Shown: one piece after another, positions 4,166-12,524 of the stretch | How positions within the stretch are numbered: the first letter of the stretch is position 1 | Layout of the letters: the number at the start of each line of letters is the position of its first letter | Origin: Fidelibacterota bacterium | GTDB taxonomy: Bacteria; Fidelibacterota; UBA8477; JABMPR01 | DNA length: 53,803 nucleotides | Assembly (NCBI GenBank): GCA_018650445.1 | Contig: JABIFX010000031.1 | Span: 1-53,803, forward strand | Direction of reading: 5' to 3' | Position numbers and translations under genes: made by a program | The notes under the pieces: generated by a model | Seen by the model: the letters and a program-made list of their open reading frames with translations, nothing else | What the model was told of the DNA's origin: nothing | Databases searched by the model: none

Positions 4166-4696
4166 TTAAGAGGTCAGCTCAGCGAGTTCCTCTTGACAGA
4201 TATGGCAAAATATATCTGACTTTTGATCAATTTCTTCCACATAGGTAGTTGAAACCATAACACAACCAGGTTTCAGGCAGTGCTTTAGTCCAAAGGCATG
4301 ACCCAATTCGTGAATTAAGCATTTCAACAAACGATCAGAATACAGTTGCGGATCCTCAGCCAGACCATATCTGTTATTGTGGAGACGATGCCCAGATACC
4401 AGAGCTGCAGAACCCCCCAGATAGGCTTGGCCAAAAATGTAACTCAAAACGGGGATAAAGAGATCCAACTCAGTAATACCCACTATCTTATTTTCGTCGC
4501 CCGCTGTTGTGACTAATTTTTGGATAATCTCATTGGCATTGTATTGGGATCGAACCGGATTGAAGTAGGGGTTCATATCGAAGGGGCGGCTACTCAGGCG
4601 GGTTTCCATTTTAAACCGGTTACTGATGATCGAGAGCATTTTTTCCAACTCTTCCACGGCAGAAAACTGTAAGGGGATAATTTTGATCAGCGACAC
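4166..4696 (-). CDS. amzA: Archaemetzincin family zinc metalloprotease
   Basis: A 176-residue protein with the archaemetzincin signature: H129-E-L-G-H133, the third His in FGLKHC, then CLKPGCVM and a C-terminal C-H-I-C pair near residue 166. In this family HExxHxxGxxH binds catalytic zinc and the Cys set binds a structural zinc. The length is typical of prokaryotic members. The start is GTG at 4696, supported by AGGA eight bases upstream. It follows the sigma-54 response regulator by 15 bp and is probably the last gene of the kinase-regulator transcript. The physiological substrate of bacterial archaemetzincins is not known. Its place in a hydrogenase/two-component cluster is unusual. Confidence 0.93.
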   Translation of the reverse strand: MSLIKIIPLQFSAVEELEKMLSIISNRFKMETRLSSRPFDMNPYFNPVRSQYNANEIIQKLVTTAGDENKIVGITELDLFIPVLSYIFGQAYLGGSAALVSGHRLHNNRYGLAEDPQLYSDRLLKCLIHELGHAFGLKHCLKPGCVMVSTTYVEEIDQKSDIFCHICQEELAELTS

Positions 4697-4711: not shown

Positions 4712-6052
4712 CTAGTTGCCCTTTTCGATCTTGTATTTCTTTATCTTGCTGTACAGGGTAACACGGTCAACGCCCAATGCTTTGGCGGCCTGAGAAATAT
4801 TCCAATCATATTTCTTAAGAATATTCTCAATATGATGATGCTCCATATCCTGGATGGATTCCCAGGTTGGTTTATCAATATTTTGTTGAAAAGGTAGGTC
4901 TTTTAGCTGAACCGTATCACCGCTCCCAATGACAATGGCTCTTTCAATCAGATTTTCCAACTCACGGACATTGCCAGGGAATGCATAATTCTGCAACGCT
5001 TTTGCAGCCCGTTTACCAATATGACGAGTCCCCTTATTCATTTGATCGGCATAGAGTTTAACAAAATGTTCAGAGAGCAACTTGATGTCTTCCACGCGCT
5101 CACGGAGAGGGGGAATAATGATTGAGAACACATTGAGCCGATAGAAGAGATCTTCCCTGAATTCTCCATTTTTCACCATGGATGCAAGATCACGATTGGT
5201 TGCACAGATCACGCGGAAATCTGATTTAAACTCGCGATTACCACCCACTCTGGCAAACTTCTTCGTTTCCAGAACTCTTAATATTTCGATCTGCATTTTC
5301 ATAGAGATGGTAGAAATTTCATCAAGGAACAGTGTGGCCCCATCGGCCATTTCGAATTTACCCTTGCGTGCGTACTGAGCACCGGTGAAAGCACCTCTCT
5401 CATGACCAAAGAGCTCGCTTTCCATGAGATTTTCTGCAATGGCCCCACAGTGAACCGTAACCATGGGGAAGAAGCGTCTCGAAGAGTTCATGTGAATGGC
5501 TTTGGCAATGAGCTCTTTGCCTGTACCACTATCACCATTGATAATGACCGTTGAATCAGTTTCAGCGACAACCCTGACCTGTTCCAAGACGTTGAGAATA
5601 CCCTCGCTCTCACCGATGATGTCATCAACATTAACCAGGCTCTTAATCCGATCCTGAAGAGATAGATTTTCCTTGCTGAGTTGAATGGACTTGCTGGCAT
5701 TTCGAATTATATGCGTGATGGCATCTGGGTCGAAAGGCTTACATACATAGTCGTAGGCGCCGTCTTTCAAGGCTTCAACCGCTGAATCAACCGATGCAAA
5801 AGCTGTCATTATGATGACAATCATATCTTCATTAATGGCTTTGATACGACGGTTTAACTCCAGACCATCCATACCGGGAAGCTTGATATCAATCAAGATG
5901 ATATGAAAATGATAGGCCTCAATCTTTTTCAAGGCCACCTTGGCATCTTCAGCAGTGTCTACGGTATATCCGTCTTCAATAAACCAGTTGGATAATGAAT
6001 CACGTACTGAGAGTTCGTCATCAACTACTAATATCGAAAGATTATTGTCCAT
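4712..6052 (-). CDS. NtrC-family sigma-54-dependent response regulator
   Basis: A 446-residue protein with the complete three-domain layout. The receiver domain (about 5-120) has acidic pocket DD 11-12, phospho-acceptor D55 and K105. The AAA+ domain (about 144-375) has Walker A GDSGTGKE at 173-180, the sigma-54-contacting GAFTGA at 220-225 and Walker B LFLDEI at 241-246. The C-terminus is a Fis-type helix-turn-helix (SQAAKALGVDRVTLY). It starts one base after the kinase gene ends, so the pair is co-translated. It should activate sigma-54 RNA polymerase when phosphorylated by the neighbouring heme-motif kinase. A sigma-54 promoter before the kinase gene (7771-7786) suggests autoregulation. Confidence 0.96.
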   Translation of the reverse strand: MDNNLSILVVDDELSVRDSLSNWFIEDGYTVDTAEDAKVALKKIEAYHFHIILIDIKLPGMDGLELNRRIKAINEDMIVIIMTAFASVDSAVEALKDGAYDYVCKPFDPDAITHIIRNASKSIQLSKENLSLQDRIKSLVNVDDIIGESEGILNVLEQVRVVAETDSTVIINGDSGTGKELIAKAIHMNSSRRFFPMVTVHCGAIAENLMESELFGHERGAFTGAQYARKGKFEMADGATLFLDEISTISMKMQIEILRVLETKKFARVGGNREFKSDFRVICATNRDLASMVKNGEFREDLFYRLNVFSIIIPPLRERVEDIKLLSEHFVKLYADQMNKGTRHIGKRAAKALQNYAFPGNVRELENLIERAIVIGSGDTVQLKDLPFQQNIDKPTWESIQDMEHHHIENILKKYDWNISQAAKALGVDRVTLYSKIKKYKIEKGN

Positions 6053-7787: not shown

Positions 7788-8591
7788 TTAACATACATAT
7801 GCCAGGTTGTCACTAACGTCTAAGAGGTACTTTGAGAACGCCTTTTTGTCTAATTGAGATCTTCGAATGAGAGTATGAGGTGTTGCTTCTTTTGCGGGCT
7901 CGAGGAGTTTATCGAAACGACCAATATCTTTTTTGGCCTGGTTCATGTAGTCATCCTTGCAGAGAAATTCAATTTCTAAAGATCCCTCATCCAGTTCCAA
8001 TTCTAATAACCAGAGATCCTCTTCCGGGCTCAGATATAGTTGGGTATCCTGCATCTGCTTGGAGTCAAACAGTGGATTGGTATGAATAATACGACCTGGT
8101 ATCGGCGTGCGCAGATAGATAATTTCATCTTCAAGTTGGAGCCAGGCAAAGCACTGTCTCTGCACAAGTAGTGAGTTATTTTTGGGTGTGATTATCTTCT
8201 GGACCGATGAAAGAATTTGAAACAGAAAGGCATCTATGCCCAGATGCACCTTCCCTTTACCAGTTCTTTTTATCCAAAAGTGACGATTTAGAAACTGGAG
8301 ACCTGGGGTAAACTGAATGACCGTTGCTTCAGGCTTACGAATATCAATGGTAGTTGATTCAGCTGTTTTTCCTGGACGACATCCGCGCATCATCTGCTTG
8401 TGAAAATCACATAAATCACAGTTTTGATTCAATGGACAGAGCTGATAATCAACGGATTCGGCATCCATCCATATGCATTTGTGTGTTTCCATTTTTGGTC
8501 TTACCCTACATGTTTTGGGCATTGGAGAAGGGGAATCCTGAGCCACACAGGAATCCCCCTCTATCGATTCGATATGTTTTAAACTTGTCAC
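7788..8591 (-). CDS. Soluble GcvH-like protein with N-terminal Cys cluster
   Basis: A 267-residue protein. The N-terminal part carries CIWM (from C39) followed by LCPLNQNCDLC, i.e. Cys 39, 52, 58 and 61, with C71 further on: a cluster resembling the CIWM...C..C motifs that precede many GcvH-like proteins and could bind Zn or Fe-S. Residues ~95-190 look like a glycine-cleavage-H (biotinyl-lipoyl) fold (WIKRTGKGKVHLGIDAF, later TPIPGRI). The lipoyl-accepting Lys is absent from the expected hairpin. The start is GTG 8591, overlapping the TGA of the previous gene (GTGA). No signal peptide or TM is visible, so it is probably cytoplasmic. A scaffold or redox-adaptor role is inferred; it is not a functional glycine-cleavage carrier by sequence. 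Confidence 0.75.
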   Translation of the reverse strand: MTSLKHIESIEGDSCVAQDSPSPMPKTCRVRPKMETHKCIWMDAESVDYQLCPLNQNCDLCDFHKQMMRGCRPGKTAESTTIDIRKPEATVIQFTPGLQFLNRHFWIKRTGKGKVHLGIDAFLFQILSSVQKIITPKNNSLLVQRQCFAWLQLEDEIIYLRTPIPGRIIHTNPLFDSKQMQDTQLYLSPEEDLWLLELELDEGSLEIEFLCKDDYMNQAKKDIGRFDKLLEPAKEATPHTLIRRSQLDKKAFSKYLLDVSDNLAYVC

Positions 8592-9280
8592 TTCGCTGCG
8601 TCGATAAACTCTGATTGGAACTCTTCCCAGATTTCAGGGGATAATGTTTCCAGCACGTTGTCTTCGATTTCACCACCTTCCTGGAGTAGGATGGGTTGAG
8701 CTGACAGATCATATTTTCTTTCGGCGAATGCCAGAACGTCACGCAGCCTGGCCTGCTCCTGTTGGATCCATTGTTGAGCCTTCTCACCTATAATGAGCAT
8801 GGCTTTCTCTACATCCCAACGCTTGGGAGCCATATCAAACAACCAGTTTTCCGTAAATTCATTGCTGGTTCGTATACTGAATTTATGGAGGGCCTTTTTA
8901 TTAATGGATTTCAAAGTTCCACTCACGGGAGAGTAGACTTTCAGGCTTTTTCCCTCAGCCATAAGGGTTGCAAGATGATCCCCGCGTTGAATCTCTTCAC
9001 CACTGATCTTGTGAAGCTGCAGTGAGACGGGACCTGTGAGAGCAGTCAGGAAGTCATCAATCCCAATTTGAACCTGACCAGCGGTTTTTAGATAAGCCCA
9101 GGTGTGGGTTTTATCAAAAAAGACACCGCGGGGTAAACGGACTTTGGCCAGTGAAAAGAGCGGACCTTCAACCTCTTTGAGAAAGGCGTAAAAGGGGACG
9201 AAAACCAGGAAAAAACTTATGATGAGTAGATACTCAATTCCTTTGGTTGCAAAAATATCGTTATAGAAAAGATTAGGCAT
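8588..9280 (-). CDS. Membrane-anchored GcvH-like protein (second copy)
   Basis: A 230-residue protein. One N-terminal transmembrane helix (about 14-35) is followed by a GcvH-like domain (about 50-150) with HTWAYLKTAGQVQIGIDDF and EGKSLKVYSPVSGTL. In true GcvH the lipoyl Lys stands six residues before the Y/S of the APVSG strand; here the Lys is five residues before, so the hairpin is one residue shorter. The C-terminal ~70 residues are helical and end in a LQEGGEIEDNVLE block that recurs in the first GcvH-like copy (LLQEGGDIADGAL). It sits directly after HybB and overlaps the third copy by four bases. It is probably a membrane-associated accessory of the HybAB module. Confidence 0.8.
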   Translation of the reverse strand: MPNLFYNDIFATKGIEYLLIISFFLVFVPFYAFLKEVEGPLFSLAKVRLPRGVFFDKTHTWAYLKTAGQVQIGIDDFLTALTGPVSLQLHKISGEEIQRGDHLATLMAEGKSLKVYSPVSGTLKSINKKALHKFSIRTSNEFTENWLFDMAPKRWDVEKAMLIIGEKAQQWIQQEQARLRDVLAFAERKYDLSAQPILLQEGGEIEDNVLETLSPEIWEEFQSEFIDAAK

Positions 9281-9297
9281 GATTCTGTTACCTCTCC

Positions 9298-10530
9298 TTA
9301 TTGTGTTTGTGAAGTTGCTGTCATGGATTCCATAGTTCTTAACACGGGCATACGATGGAGAACCCAGCGGAAGATCCAGATCTGAACGAATAGGATGGAT
9401 ACGGTTACGACTATTTCCATCCAGGTTGGTATATAGCGGGGAATCTCATCCCAACGATAGGCAATTACAGACACATTCATACGATTGAGGACGATCCCAA
9501 TCAGGGTCATAATAGAAGCCAACTTTATGGTGTATGGAGTACCCAATCTAACACCTCTAACAAAGAGCAGCATTGGAATGAGGACAAAACCGATCATCTC
9601 TATCATGTACCATACACCCATGGGGGTCATGAGATATCCCAGGGTATGATTGTGAACTGAATCAACGATTTTGAGAAAGAAATATACAAACATAGCGATC
9701 GCGCAAACTCGGGAGAGACCGCGAATCATGATATTGTGGTTCTCATCGCTATTATTATCCAACTGATAGGCAAAGACCTTTTGTAAGATACTCCCTTGAA
9801 AAATCACCATACTCAGTCCAGCAAAAATACTGGAGATAAAGAACAGGGTGGGGATGAACTCTGAATACCAGAGAGGATGGATCTTGCCCTTGGCCATGAG
9901 GAAGAGCGCGCCCAGTCCAGATTGGTGGAGGGTGGAAAGTGTGATACCAAAAACTACTGCACCAATGGTGAGACGTTTCAGGTTTCGTCTGGCACGCTCT
10001 GAACCCAGCCACTCTGCTATTGTGGGAGAAAATTCGATGAGCTGAGCCACGATATAGAGCATAAAGTGCCAGGCCACCAGAAAGAGAATGCTGCTGGTCC
10101 CAAACGAGTTACCTATGATAGGATTGATGATGTTCCAGGGTTTACCCAGGTCAAGAATCAAAGCAATTGCATAGAAGGTATATGCCAGGAATCCGTTCAA
10201 TACGGTGACACGAATCAGTGGTTTATACTTTTCCAAACCCAGGATATATACCATAAAGGTTAAAACGTAGGCTCCCCCGGCAAAGGCAACACCTGTCACC
10301 ACGTTAAAACCCTTCCACAACCCCCAGGGCACAGTTTGGGTCACATTTGAAACCGCTGAGAGTCCATAAACAAAACGAATAACAATAATGACTGCTGCAA
10401 CAATTACAGTTGGCACAGAAATCATATTAAAGATGGTCCATGGATTACCACGGGGTTTTAACTCAGAAAGTAAAAACTTCCAGGTACTGGCAGGACGTTC
10501 ATAAGTATCAGTCATTAAACTCTCACTCAT
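9298..10530 (-). CDS. hybB: HybB/NrfD-type quinone-interacting membrane subunit
   Basis: A 410-residue polytopic protein with about ten hydrophobic segments, similar in length to E. coli HybB (392). The early block QTVPWGLWKGFNVVTG.AFAGGAY and the later LDLGKPWN are typical of HybB/NrfD-like anchors. These carry electrons from a periplasmic Fe-S subunit to the quinone pool, or translocate protons. I prefer ATG 10530 over an upstream ATG at 10560 because AAGGAG precedes it by six bases. It then overlaps the HybA gene end by eight bases. With HybA and the hydrogenase it should form a group 1 H2:quinone oxidoreductase. The GcvH-like gene follows after 17 bp. Confidence 0.9.
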   Translation of the reverse strand: MSESLMTDTYERPASTWKFLLSELKPRGNPWTIFNMISVPTVIVAAVIIVIRFVYGLSAVSNVTQTVPWGLWKGFNVVTGVAFAGGAYVLTFMVYILGLEKYKPLIRVTVLNGFLAYTFYAIALILDLGKPWNIINPIIGNSFGTSSILFLVAWHFMLYIVAQLIEFSPTIAEWLGSERARRNLKRLTIGAVVFGITLSTLHQSGLGALFLMAKGKIHPLWYSEFIPTLFFISSIFAGLSMVIFQGSILQKVFAYQLDNNSDENHNIMIRGLSRVCAIAMFVYFFLKIVDSVHNHTLGYLMTPMGVWYMIEMIGFVLIPMLLFVRGVRLGTPYTIKLASIMTLIGIVLNRMNVSVIAYRWDEIPRYIPTWMEIVVTVSILFVQIWIFRWVLHRMPVLRTMESMTATSQTQ

Positions 10531-11395
10531 GATCTGCTCCTTCCATAACTTCTTGGTCATCTTTTTTCGTTGCTTCTCTCAAACCCATGAGCAAAGCTGG
10601 CCATAGAACAAAAACGGAGGGAACACTGTATAGGAATCCCTTTGTGAGTTCAGGATATGGTTTGGTTTCCAGGTCAGTTTTGAATCCAAGTTCCTCAAAA
10701 GGAACAGGGGAGACATTTAACCATGATGTACCACCGGCTTCATATTCACCATATACATGATCGACATATGAATCGGGATCTTCCAGAATTCTTCGGTGAG
10801 CCTCGGCTAAGATCTCGCTGCGTTTTCCAAACGTGAGTGCCTCAGCGGGACAGTTTTCAACACAGGCAGGAATTTCACCTTCCTTCAATTTGTCAAAACA
10901 CATCTGGCACTTACCAATTTTTGGATTGTTGTCATCAAATTCGAATTGGGGAACGTCAAAGGGGCAGGAGACCATGCAGTAACGACATCCCATACATTTA
11001 CCTTCAGTCCAGGTTACCGGACCTTCTTCATGCTTTGTCATTGCTTGAGTAAGACAGGCAGAAGCACATGCAGGTTGGGCGCAATGCATACATTGTTGTT
11101 TCGTGTACACCTCACCAACACTGGTCTCTACGGCATTGATTACAGAGTATTGATCCGGCTTTAATTTTCGTTTTACATCACTATCCGGGTAGTCAGAAGG
11201 TTCTGGCAGGTTGTTGGCTGCCGCACAGGCGAATTCACACTCCTGACAGCCTTCACACAGGGTTATGTCATGCAGGATGGCATAGAATTCTTCCTGGTCT
11301 GGTTCAGGCTTTGATTTTCCAAGGGCAGAGGCTCCACTCAGGCTAGCGCCCGCAACCCCCAGGGGTTTAAGAAATTCTCGTCTATCAATAGACAT
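10523..11395 (-). CDS. hybA: HybA-type ferredoxin subunit, four [4Fe-4S] clusters, Tat signal
   Basis: A 290-residue protein beginning with a Tat-type signal (DRREFLKPLGVAGASLSG). Four Cys groups follow: CEGCQECEFAC, CMHCAQPACASAC, CMGCRYCMVSC, and CQMC with CVENC. These fit four [4Fe-4S] clusters as in HybA/DmsB/NrfC-like electron-transfer subunits. A C-terminal hydrophobic helix (about 250-275, FLYSVPSVFVLWPALLMGL) would anchor it to the membrane, as in HybA. It lies between the first GcvH-like gene (50-bp gap) and HybB (8-bp overlap). Periplasmic electron relay from hydrogenase small subunit to HybB is the expected role. Confidence 0.92.
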   Translation of the reverse strand: MSIDRREFLKPLGVAGASLSGASALGKSKPEPDQEEFYAILHDITLCEGCQECEFACAAANNLPEPSDYPDSDVKRKLKPDQYSVINAVETSVGEVYTKQQCMHCAQPACASACLTQAMTKHEEGPVTWTEGKCMGCRYCMVSCPFDVPQFEFDDNNPKIGKCQMCFDKLKEGEIPACVENCPAEALTFGKRSEILAEAHRRILEDPDSYVDHVYGEYEAGGTSWLNVSPVPFEELGFKTDLETKPYPELTKGFLYSVPSVFVLWPALLMGLREATKKDDQEVMEGADHE

Positions 11396-11445
11396 ATTGG
11401 ATTGTCCTTACAGTTTCTAGAATCAGTTATGAGGATGAGGGATTA

Positions 11446-12156
11446 TTATGAATCGTGTAACAATTCTTGATTCGATGGATCCAGAATGAGCTTTTGAAAT
11501 GATCCCCACAAACCTTTGCCAGCGAATGCCAACGCGCCGTCAGCGATATCACCACCTTCTTGAAGCAATGCCAAACCACGTTCCGCATGGGGCGGTGCAA
11601 AAGAATGAGCGAAGAAATCTCGGATTCTTGCTATTTCAGCTTTGAGCCAGGATGATGTACGCGAACCCCGATAGAGTCGCTGGGTATCATTTTCCCAGTT
11701 TGAGGGTTCAAGCTTTGCCAACCAACCAGCAGCATAGGGATCCCTGTGTACAATACCCAGATTCTGAAGGGCGACGTGATTGATCGTTTTGATTGTTCCG
11801 GAGACAGGAGCAGAGATCACTAGCATCTTGCCTTCATGTGAAATTTGAAACATGGGGTCTCCCTGCCGAACTTCTTGTCCCTTCTCTGGGATCTTGATTT
11901 CGGATAGAACACCTGTTAAACCATTAAGAAAAGCATCAACACCAACTTTGGCGACTCCGTTAGACTGCATATGTGCCCAGCTGTGGGTAGGACTGAAGTA
12001 GACCCCAGCAGGTGAGGTGAGTCTATCGGGTTTGAATTGATACGTCTTCTTCATTACGATGGGTGAATCACGCAAAGCCTGATATCGTTTCATTCCCTTA
12101 TACCAGGAAATTGATATTGCGATAGCAGCAAATAAAACAACGAGAGCAATGACCAT
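11446..12156 (-). CDS. Membrane-anchored GcvH-like protein (first copy)
   Basis: A 236-residue protein with an N-terminal transmembrane helix (about 2-20) and a GcvH-like domain (about 45-150: FSPTHSWAHMQSNGVAKVGVDAF, then EGKMLVISAPVSGTIKTIN). As in the second copy the hairpin Lys is five rather than six residues before the SAPVSG strand, so lipoylation is doubtful. The helical C-terminal part includes LLQEGGDIADGAL, shared with the copy at 8588-9280. The start is well defined: AAAGGAGG lies just upstream of ATG 12156. It is the first gene of the - strand cluster, placed ahead of HybA. The two membrane copies bracket HybAB, which suggests a dedicated pair of accessory subunits. Confidence 0.8.
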   Translation of the reverse strand: MVIALVVLFAAIAISISWYKGMKRYQALRDSPIVMKKTYQFKPDRLTSPAGVYFSPTHSWAHMQSNGVAKVGVDAFLNGLTGVLSEIKIPEKGQEVRQGDPMFQISHEGKMLVISAPVSGTIKTINHVALQNLGIVHRDPYAAGWLAKLEPSNWENDTQRLYRGSRTSSWLKAEIARIRDFFAHSFAPPHAERGLALLQEGGDIADGALAFAGKGLWGSFQKLILDPSNQELLHDS

Positions 12157-12188: not shown

Positions 12189-12204
12189 TTCAATAGCGAT
12201 GCCA
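12189..12204 (-). promoter_or_regulatory. Candidate sigma-54 promoter for the GcvH-like/HybAB operon
   Basis: On the - strand it reads TGGCATCGCTATTGAA, against TGGCACGNNNNTTGCW. The GG and the TTG are at the right spacing, but the -12 is GA rather than GC and the -24 has two changes. A start near 12178 would give a ~22-base leader containing the SD. A perfect TATAAT on the - strand (12209-12214) without a good -35 is an alternative. The presence of a sigma-54 regulator in the same cluster favours the first reading. Confidence 0.4.
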
Positions 12205-12254: not shown

Positions 12255-12524
12255 ATAATATTGAAGGACAAAAAAATAGAAGTGTATAGAAATTCATCAC
12301 ATGCACTCAGCCACCGGCGAAAACGCGCTTCACGCCCAATCTTCGATAGTGCTGAAAAATGCAACAACTGTTTAGAATCCTTACAGTGCCTTAGGAGAGG
12401 GAAAAACTAATATATAGTATTGATAATAATGATGTTAGTGTGAAATAATATGACTATTCATCTAGGAGAAAAATACGAGAGGGCAAAAATAGATAAACCG
12501 ATTTTCGAATTATTGAGTTTTTAA

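Follow-up and report, generated by a model that had tools for sequence, protein, structure and literature searches.

An operon of GcvH-like proteins, a HybAB-type quinone module and a two-component system: a candidate membrane redox sensor in Neomarinimicrobiota and Bacteroidota

Results

A conserved unit joins GcvH-like proteins to a quinone module and a heme-motif kinase

In a 53,803-nucleotide stretch of DNA from a Fidelibacterota bacterium (contig JABIFX010000031.1; "the window" below means this whole stretch), three proteins resembling the H protein of glycine cleavage (GcvH) are encoded around an iron-sulfur protein (HybA) and an NrfD-family membrane protein (HybB), in an operon that continues into a sensor histidine kinase and its regulator. 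We interpret this operon, with a probability of a little under one half (roughly 0.47), as a two-component system that senses redox state at the membrane and into which a quinone module can be plugged. The most recurrent core consists of the first GcvH-like protein (Gcv1), the kinase, the NtrC-family regulator, an archaemetzincin and the promoter, and HybAB together with the second GcvH-like protein (Gcv2) is an exchangeable cassette. The operon is thus a candidate sensor of the state of electron transport, and its conserved promoter and natural module swaps make the parts testable.

Open reading frames (ORFs) and family scans give the following order on the minus strand, from position 12156 to position 4166:

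11446 to 12156, minus strand: Gcv1, 236 amino acids, with an N-terminal transmembrane (TM) helix, a GcvH domain and a Q-[ED]-GG tail
10523 to 11395, minus strand: HybA, a HybA/HmcB-like ferredoxin subunit with a twin-arginine N-terminus and a C-terminal hydrophobic anchor
9298 to 10560, minus strand: HybB, a HybB/HmcC-like NrfD-family membrane subunit, assigned by family scores and tree
8588 to 9280, minus strand: Gcv2, with an N-terminal TM helix, a GcvH domain and a tail as in Gcv1
7788 to 8591, minus strand: Gcv3, with a C[IL]WM/cysteine segment and a weak GcvH domain, without a TM helix
6054 to 7724, minus strand: sensor histidine kinase, with a periplasmic domain carrying CXXCH and CX4CH, followed by HAMP, HisKA and HATPase domains
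4712 to 6052, minus strand: NtrC-family response regulator, with a GAFTGA motif and a Fis helix-turn-helix (HTH)
4166 to 4696, minus strand: archaemetzincin-family zinc metalloprotease (NF033823, 148.8 bits, cut-off 145), which closes the conserved unit

Going by shorter relatives, the true start of Gcv3 is probably at 8492. A reading made from the window's sequence alone had described three GcvH-like proteins around HybA and HybB on this strand, two with a TM helix and a shared sequence block and one soluble. All five ORFs lie where it placed them, the shared block is present in Gcv1 and Gcv2 as the tail LLQ-[ED]-GG-[ED], and Gcv3 has no TM helix. The cluster of five genes that it outlined is real, but the unit does not end at 7788, as the kinase, the NtrC regulator and the archaemetzincin also belong to it.

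The names HybA and HybB likewise stand in part: an iron-sulfur/NrfD-family pair is present, but its scores are nearer to HmcB/HmcC than to HybA/HybB of hydrogenase-2. HmcB and HmcC (NF045715 and NF045714) are the best NCBIfam matches, at 323.8 bits for HybA (cut-off 420) and 358.3 bits for HybB (cut-off 550), and the hydrogenase-2 equivalogs give 223.1 bits (cut-off 263) and 230.8 bits (cut-off 450), all four scores lying under their cut-offs. A search of PDB sequences with HybB returned no match at 1e-3. The start of HybA is twin-arginine-like in 46 of 51 module rows; the other five are L182 (twin-arginine on inspection), L165 (Arg-Lys), L164 (a single Arg), L177 (maybe mis-started) and L054 (none). 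An annotation as HybA/HybB therefore need not imply hydrogen metabolism.

The association is conserved in two phyla

The survey covered Neomarinimicrobiota and Bacteroidota, and genes in the loci fetched were named by BLAST against proteins of the window, L054 and L076 unless Pfam or NCBIfam is cited. Gcv1 is encoded at full length in 16 of the 19 genomes of the window's genus (Candidatus Neomarinimicrobiota), including the window's own; among the other three, G016 holds only a piece of the operon at a contig edge, and G002 and G014 have no Gcv1/Gcv2-type match. All 15 same-genus loci fetched have Gcv1-HybA-HybB in this order; 11 of them are complete to the archaemetzincin, and contig ends cut the other four. 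Across the phylum, a Gcv1/Gcv2 profile matches 45 of 245 genomes at 1e-22. Outside the genus the match extends to the tail in G028, G040, G063, G144, G215 and G217; G142 and G143 are a different case, and the remaining matches are partial, mostly to short frames like those of ordinary H proteins.

A scan of genome contigs for the tail pattern yielded 36 loci, 13 of them named Candidatus Neomarinimicrobiota and 21 Bacteroidota; only two patterns were used, so that this distribution is a lower bound. In 18 of the 21 Bacteroidota loci Gcv1, HybB, Gcv2, the kinase and the NtrC regulator follow in order (in L079 the ORF caller placed an opposite-strand ORF at the position of HybA). Of the other three, L073 stops at a contig end, and HybAB and Gcv2 are missing from L087 and L093. 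The gene order common to the two phyla is Gcv1-HybA-HybB-Gcv2-(Gcv3)-kinase-NtrC-archaemetzincin, and in both phyla the archaemetzincin is the terminal gene of the unit.

Among 393 Bacteroidales genomes, 50 encode a TM-type GcvH (1e-35) and 46 a HybB (1e-25), with 43 encoding both, seven TM-GcvH alone (G252, G286, G350, G372, G381, G454 and G459) and three HybB alone (Fisher p 2.6e-46, uncorrected for kinship). In the three HybB-only genomes, G294, G332 and G510, HybA and HybB adjoin a large ORF, which scores as formate dehydrogenase-N alpha in G332 and G510; the gene order in G294 is similar. This co-occurrence supports the part of the sequence-only reading that saw in the GcvH-like proteins dedicated companions of HybA/HybB, and the loci from the genus, the Bacteroidota and the Bacteroidales rule out that the association is confined to the window.

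Natural swaps suggest a sensory core and an exchangeable quinone cassette

In seven loci (L087, L093, L171, L172, L173, L175 and L176) the kinase gene comes immediately after Gcv1, and the operon has no HybA, HybB or Gcv2. Six of these continue with the NtrC regulator and the archaemetzincin, and L087 is cut by a contig end. A search for HybB in the seven genomes and in G372 gave a match at 1e-8 in one of eight, a weak one (G252, 9.4e-9). In a further locus, L184, a multiheme cytochrome and a fusion of cytochrome b561 to GcvH replace HybA-HybB-Gcv2, the fusion scoring 83 bits for cytochrome b561 (PF01292) and 83 bits for the GcvH domain. Because of these seven loci and the L184 fusion, Gcv1 tracks the kinase, and Gcv2 the quinone-side membrane protein. 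In our reading the exchangeable cassette combines a membrane protein of quinone type and a redox protein; most forms of the latter, L054 and L163 being exceptions, are periplasmic as judged by their signal. Loci L171-L184 were hand-picked because they are single-copy or unusual, so that they do not represent a random draw.

Two other arrangements were seen. In L174 (G372; 8404-9549) the N-terminal part of HybA is in frame with the C-terminal part of the kinase, a join that could be a deletion or a misassembly; this locus is excluded from the seven. In L166 (5249-14276) and L167 the kinase, NtrC and archaemetzincin genes adjoin one for a Gcv3-like protein (311 amino acids in L166, 320 in L167). 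The L166 protein has two C[IL]WM-like/cysteine motifs, and an Fe_hyd_lg_C protein is encoded nearby. Both loci are perhaps a related sensory system without HybAB.

The GcvH-like proteins lack a lysine at the aligned lipoyl position

The Pfam GCV_H profile scores Gcv1 at 69.0 bits, Gcv2 at 42.4 and Gcv3 at 21.5, the last just below the cut-off of 22.2; a six-frame search of the window's genome recovers the same three stretches at 70.8, 44.0 and 23.5 bits, all above it. Scores against the gcvH equivalog TIGR00527 (59.1, 32.8 and 22.2 bits) are all under its cut-off of 115.85. A structure model of Gcv3 (mean pLDDT 74, residues 1-44 below 50) matches H proteins of glycine cleavage with a best Foldseek E of 3.8e-7 and a target-normalised TM-score of at most 0.80. 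Both glycines of the tail GG are invariant across 21 aligned rows of Gcv1/Gcv2 type, and the C[IL]WM cysteine motif is present in 20 of 20 Gcv3 rows.

At the aligned lipoyl position, lysine occurs in none of 136 module GcvH rows (a few contigs being counted twice) and in six of seven reference rows, the seventh being a mis-picked ORF. Together with the sub-cut-off equivalog scores, this disfavours a role in glycine cleavage or as lipoate carrier, in line with the view of the sequence-only reading that these proteins are not parts of glycine cleavage. Through this operon, proteins of this kind, usually annotated under glycine cleavage, may gain a role in membrane redox signalling.

Gcv1 is longer in Bacteroidota, with 524-595 residues in all 21 Bacteroidota loci of the tail-pattern scan (the start of L082 is cut); in the Bacteroidales survey some Gcv1 are short, in open frames of about 230-260. 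Four long Gcv1 were scanned for PBP_like_2 (cut-off 27 bits): L087 (29.8) and L093 (27.6) lie above the cut-off, L174 (21.6) and L076 (19.8) below. The model of the L076 protein has a hydrophobic N-terminal helix, a phosphate-binding-protein-like domain, a TM helix and a GcvH domain, the last with a Foldseek target-normalised TM-score of up to 0.95 against H proteins; with a mean pLDDT of 82.9 and a pTM of 0.52, the placement of the domains relative to each other is unsure. If the phosphate-binding-like domain is periplasmic, the TM helix between the two would put the GcvH domain of Gcv1 in the cytoplasm. The charge pattern agrees: among the rows in which a TM helix was detected, lysine and arginine are more frequent on its C-terminal side in 49 of 57 for Gcv1 and in 46 of 48 for Gcv2.

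The kinase carries two c-type heme motifs in its sensor domain

A second heme motif is present in all 54 kinase rows (one contig being counted twice), as CX4CH in 53 and as CXXCH at about that place in L179, and the first motif, CXXCH, in 48 of the 54. These motifs suggest that the predicted periplasmic domain attaches one or more c-type hemes. A profile of seven kinase sensor domains matches PDB 3b42, which we take to be a Geobacter heme sensor, with E 0.009, CX4CH being aligned to the CXXCH of 3b42; a eukaryotic transcription factor scores equally well against the profile, so that this match is weak by itself. The L093 kinase has a weak match to the heme-sensor family PF21563 (E 0.06), and sCache_heme (PF11845) gave no match at E 1 in the window kinase or in the L093 kinase. 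In L082 (4613-8150), two kinases of the module type stand in tandem in one locus.

The promoter region is conserved in both phyla

Upstream of Gcv1 the following elements were found:

12189 to 12204, minus strand: sigma-54-like -24/-12 element, TGGCATCGCTATTGAA, lying 48 bp ahead of the start of Gcv1
12283 to 12299, no strand assigned: palindromic enhancer-like site with 3 mismatches, 95 bp upstream of the -24 element, its position kept in the genus
12350 to 12366, no strand assigned: palindromic enhancer-like site with 2 mismatches, 162 bp upstream of the -24 element
12369 to 12385, no strand assigned: third palindromic site, the most degenerate, 181 bp upstream of the -24 element

The genus alignment of the region upstream of Gcv1 has TGGCAY-N5-TTGAA in every one of its 16 rows, at a distance of 47-50 bp from the ATG, together with up to three palindromes of the form TGTTGA-N5-TCAACA, which are degenerate in the window itself. 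A first sigma-54 scan, which required GC at -12, gave no consistent site. Across both phyla, 43 of 51 upstream regions contain an exact TGGCAY-N5-TTG element at most 180 bp from the start and a palindrome with at most 2 mismatches 60-200 bp upstream of it, compared with a mean of 0.0 in 100 shuffles; the motifs, with TTGA at -12, had been taken from some of the sequences scanned, and the shuffles ignore kinship. The exact element is absent from L072, L092, L093, L173, L180, L181, L164 and L165. In Neomarinimicrobiota the distances of the palindromes form groups at 93-96, 160-165 and 179-183 bp; those in Bacteroidota are the same or about 11 bp shorter. A few distances (69, 104, 169 and 188) fall outside these groups.

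A strict combined pattern applied to 59 whole genomes is a more independent test of the promoter than shuffled upstream regions. It gave five matches, all upstream of Gcv1 (the one in G269 placed there by open-frame length), and none in the reversed control; five of 39 genomes with module genes and none of 20 Bacteroidales without the module were matched. The exact palindrome occurs at 23 places in the 19 genus genomes, compared with nine for its reversed control. Seven of these lie between Gcv1 and its divergent neighbour (one each in G001, G003 and G005, two each in G011 and G015), and the remaining 16 are little above the control.

The kinase is thus paired with a regulator of receiver, AAA and HTH domains with GAFTGA, as expected of an NtrC-type two-component system, and the promoter, judged by consensus, has the -24/-12 element and upstream palindromes of such systems. 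Since the regulator carries GAFTGA and the element and palindromes upstream of Gcv1 are conserved, the operon is likely autoregulated through its NtrC regulator and sigma-54-like promoter.

Discussion

A proposed mechanism and the evidence that weighs against it

On the gene content, topology pattern, heme motifs, promoter architecture and module swaps that the sequences show, we propose that HybB would trade electrons with the quinone pool and pass them to the periplasmic iron-sulfur protein HybA, this being the direction of flow that we infer. HybA would in turn determine how far the c-type heme(s) in the periplasmic domain of the kinase, the presumed acceptor, are oxidised or reduced, either directly or, in loci that have one, via a multiheme cytochrome. 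The kinase would phosphorylate the NtrC regulator, which would bind the palindromes and drive its own sigma-54 promoter and, in some strains, an adjacent cytochrome operon as well. The GcvH domains, without lysine at the aligned lipoyl place, would act as cytoplasmic structural adaptors, with Gcv1 on the kinase side and Gcv2 on the quinone module coupling the two, possibly by GcvH-GcvH or GcvH-kinase contact. In its most general form, the proposal is that a lipoyl-less GcvH fold acts as a membrane signalling adaptor and an NrfD-type oxidoreductase as a potentiometer wired to a heme-c kinase, giving Bacteroidota and Marinimicrobia a swappable quinone-pool sensor (HybAB, or cytochrome b561 with a multiheme cytochrome); we advance this form tentatively.

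Several observations weigh against the redox-sensing interpretation. Both heme motifs are kept in the kinases of all seven loci without HybAB, because of which HybAB cannot be the sole input to the kinase. Conversely, L054 (G028) encodes Gcv-HybA-HybB-Gcv3 with no kinase recognised beside it. HybA lacks a Tat signal in G028 (L054:9170-9928) and G040 (L163:897-1721), where it may be an iron-sulfur protein of a second subtype on the cytoplasmic side. A lysine lies within one residue of the lipoyl position in 97 of the 136 GcvH rows (in none of 21 for Gcv3), so that some lipoylation may still occur. Of the 39 module genomes, 34 escaped the strict promoter pattern, the window's own among them, so that the pattern says little on a wider regulon. 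To these are added the relationships of HybB and the cytochromes of some loci, which are equally evidence for a respiratory role. The heme motifs kept without HybAB and the cytochromes found alongside HybAB weigh most heavily.

In that alternative, which we consider rather unlikely, HybAB-Gcv would be an ordinary respiratory quinol:cytochrome c oxidoreductase of Hmc/Nrf type, supplying multiheme reductases in the periplasm. The GcvH proteins would be its structural subunits on the cytoplasmic side, and the two-component system would do no more than turn it on. The best scores of HybA and HybB, those for HmcB and HmcC, agree with this, and in the HybB tree, which carries long-branch warnings, the module HybBs are not one clade, HybBs of formate dehydrogenase type falling among them. 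A class III multiheme cytochrome is encoded inside the operons of L164 and L165, and an octaheme cytochrome of the tetrathionate-reductase family (TIGR04315, cut-off 375) lies behind a sigma-54-like element with palindromes in L043 (585 bits) and L044 (572 bits), both of which fit ordinary respiration. The divergent operon of L044 encodes, besides the octaheme protein, class III and c554-type cytochromes, and its palindromes are at 72 and 200 bp, off the main spacing. However, the octaheme family is found in only six of 19 genus genomes, including G014, which lacks the module, and not in the window's genome; Gcv1 and the kinase persist without HybAB in the seven loci; and most loci contain no recognised terminal enzyme, although ORFs outside the module are mostly unannotated.

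An improbable alternative is that the kinase heme senses nitric oxide (NO) and that the operon is a nitrosative-stress circuit, with HybAB supplying electrons for detoxification or resetting the heme. Octaheme cytochromes of tetrathionate-reductase type can act on nitrogen oxides, which would suit such a circuit, as does the weak alignment with 3b42. A related c-heme Cache family is described as associated with TM helices and HAMP, and a HAMP-associated member that was tested is reported to bind NO (PMC12889525). Against a sensor of this kind stand the missing PF11845 match in the window kinase and the presence of two heme motifs, not one, in most kinases.

The sequence-only reading had taken the GcvH-like proteins for subunits or assembly factors of a hydrogen-to-quinone complex, and a hydrogenase is indeed close. 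The window starts inside the gene of an NiFe hydrogenase large subunit, whose 3' end is at 2-67, followed by a HyaD/HybD-type maturation protease at 57-596. A contig break cuts this large-subunit gene in two, and the rest of its hyb operon, with its own HybA'/HybB', is on contig C58 (L208); in L210 and L212 an intact hybO-A'-B'-C-D operon is convergent with the module, so that in all three loci of the genus the neighbouring hydrogenase has its own HybA'/HybB'. By coordinates, 11 of the 19 genus genomes have a full-type NiFe large subunit on the module contig, at some 11-13 kb from Gcv1, but none was found in G001, G005, G008 and G016, which have module genes (these are drafts, G008 being 63% complete). 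In the tree, the hydrogenase HybB' stands apart from every other HybB (support 100/100). Catalytic hydrogenase subunits are absent from the module operon among the ORFs of the window, and from the Bacteroidota module loci within the flanks fetched. Among Bacteroidales, an NiFe match (E 1e-10) occurs in 24 of the 50 genomes with the module and in 108 of the 343 without it (p 0.025), and a group-1-like hydrogenase, by our own cut, in 11 of 50 and 31 of 343 (p 0.012), a mild enrichment and not a requirement, since 26 of the 50 module genomes have no NiFe match at all. A hydrogenase complex is thus rejected as the general role on account of the separate HybA'/HybB', the tree split and the module genomes without NiFe hydrogenase, and, Gcv1 also staying with the kinase where HybAB is missing, we regard it as very improbable.

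Relation to known systems

The module shares with Hmc (HmcBC, of sulfate respiration) and with HybAB of hydrogenase-2 an iron-sulfur protein and an NrfD-family subunit, the order HybA then HybB, and a twin-arginine HybA. It differs in being flanked by GcvH-like proteins and a two-component system, and in its scores under the equivalog cut-offs; ORF and family scans found no HmcA-, HmcE- or HmcF-type genes in the window's operon, and multiheme cytochromes lie within the operons of L164, L165 and L184 and next door in L044. With NtrC-type sigma-54 systems it shares the kinase, the AAA+ regulator with GAFTGA, the palindromes and a -24/-12-like element; here, by contrast, the kinase has periplasmic c-heme motifs, the operon includes membrane GcvH and HybAB, and the -12 half is usually TTGA. 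The c-heme Cache sensors (sCache_heme, DUF3365/Tll0287; GSU0582 and GSU0935 of Geobacter) are alike in having a periplasmic heme-c motif before HAMP, as the weak 3b42 match reflects, and differ from these kinases, which mostly carry two motifs (CXXCH and CX4CH), lack PF11845 and are coupled to a quinone module.

RegB/PrrB and ArcB are redox kinases whose input is electron transport or the state of the quinone pool; we know of no dedicated NrfD-type module or GcvH adaptors in these, and to our knowledge electron-transport sensing by anaerobes outside Proteobacteria is largely open. Recruitment of the GcvH fold outside glycine cleavage has a parallel in LbpA of sulfur oxidation. The lipoyl lysine of LbpA is reported to be strictly conserved (PMC6067878). 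The module GcvH proteins, in contrast, have no lysine at the aligned place, and Gcv1 and Gcv2 carry a TM helix; family scans of the window genes named no hdr-like genes, although no search was aimed at these. Titles and the beginnings of abstracts among the literature matches listed, which mostly leave subscription papers uncovered, contain no description of GcvH-like proteins with HybA/HybB and a histidine kinase, and the available part of PMC8076601 makes no mention of GcvH, glycine cleavage or a histidine kinase. The window's genome encodes another cluster of GcvH-like proteins (L055, contig C252), one member of which has the canonical lysine, and a similar order is seen in L057 and L058.

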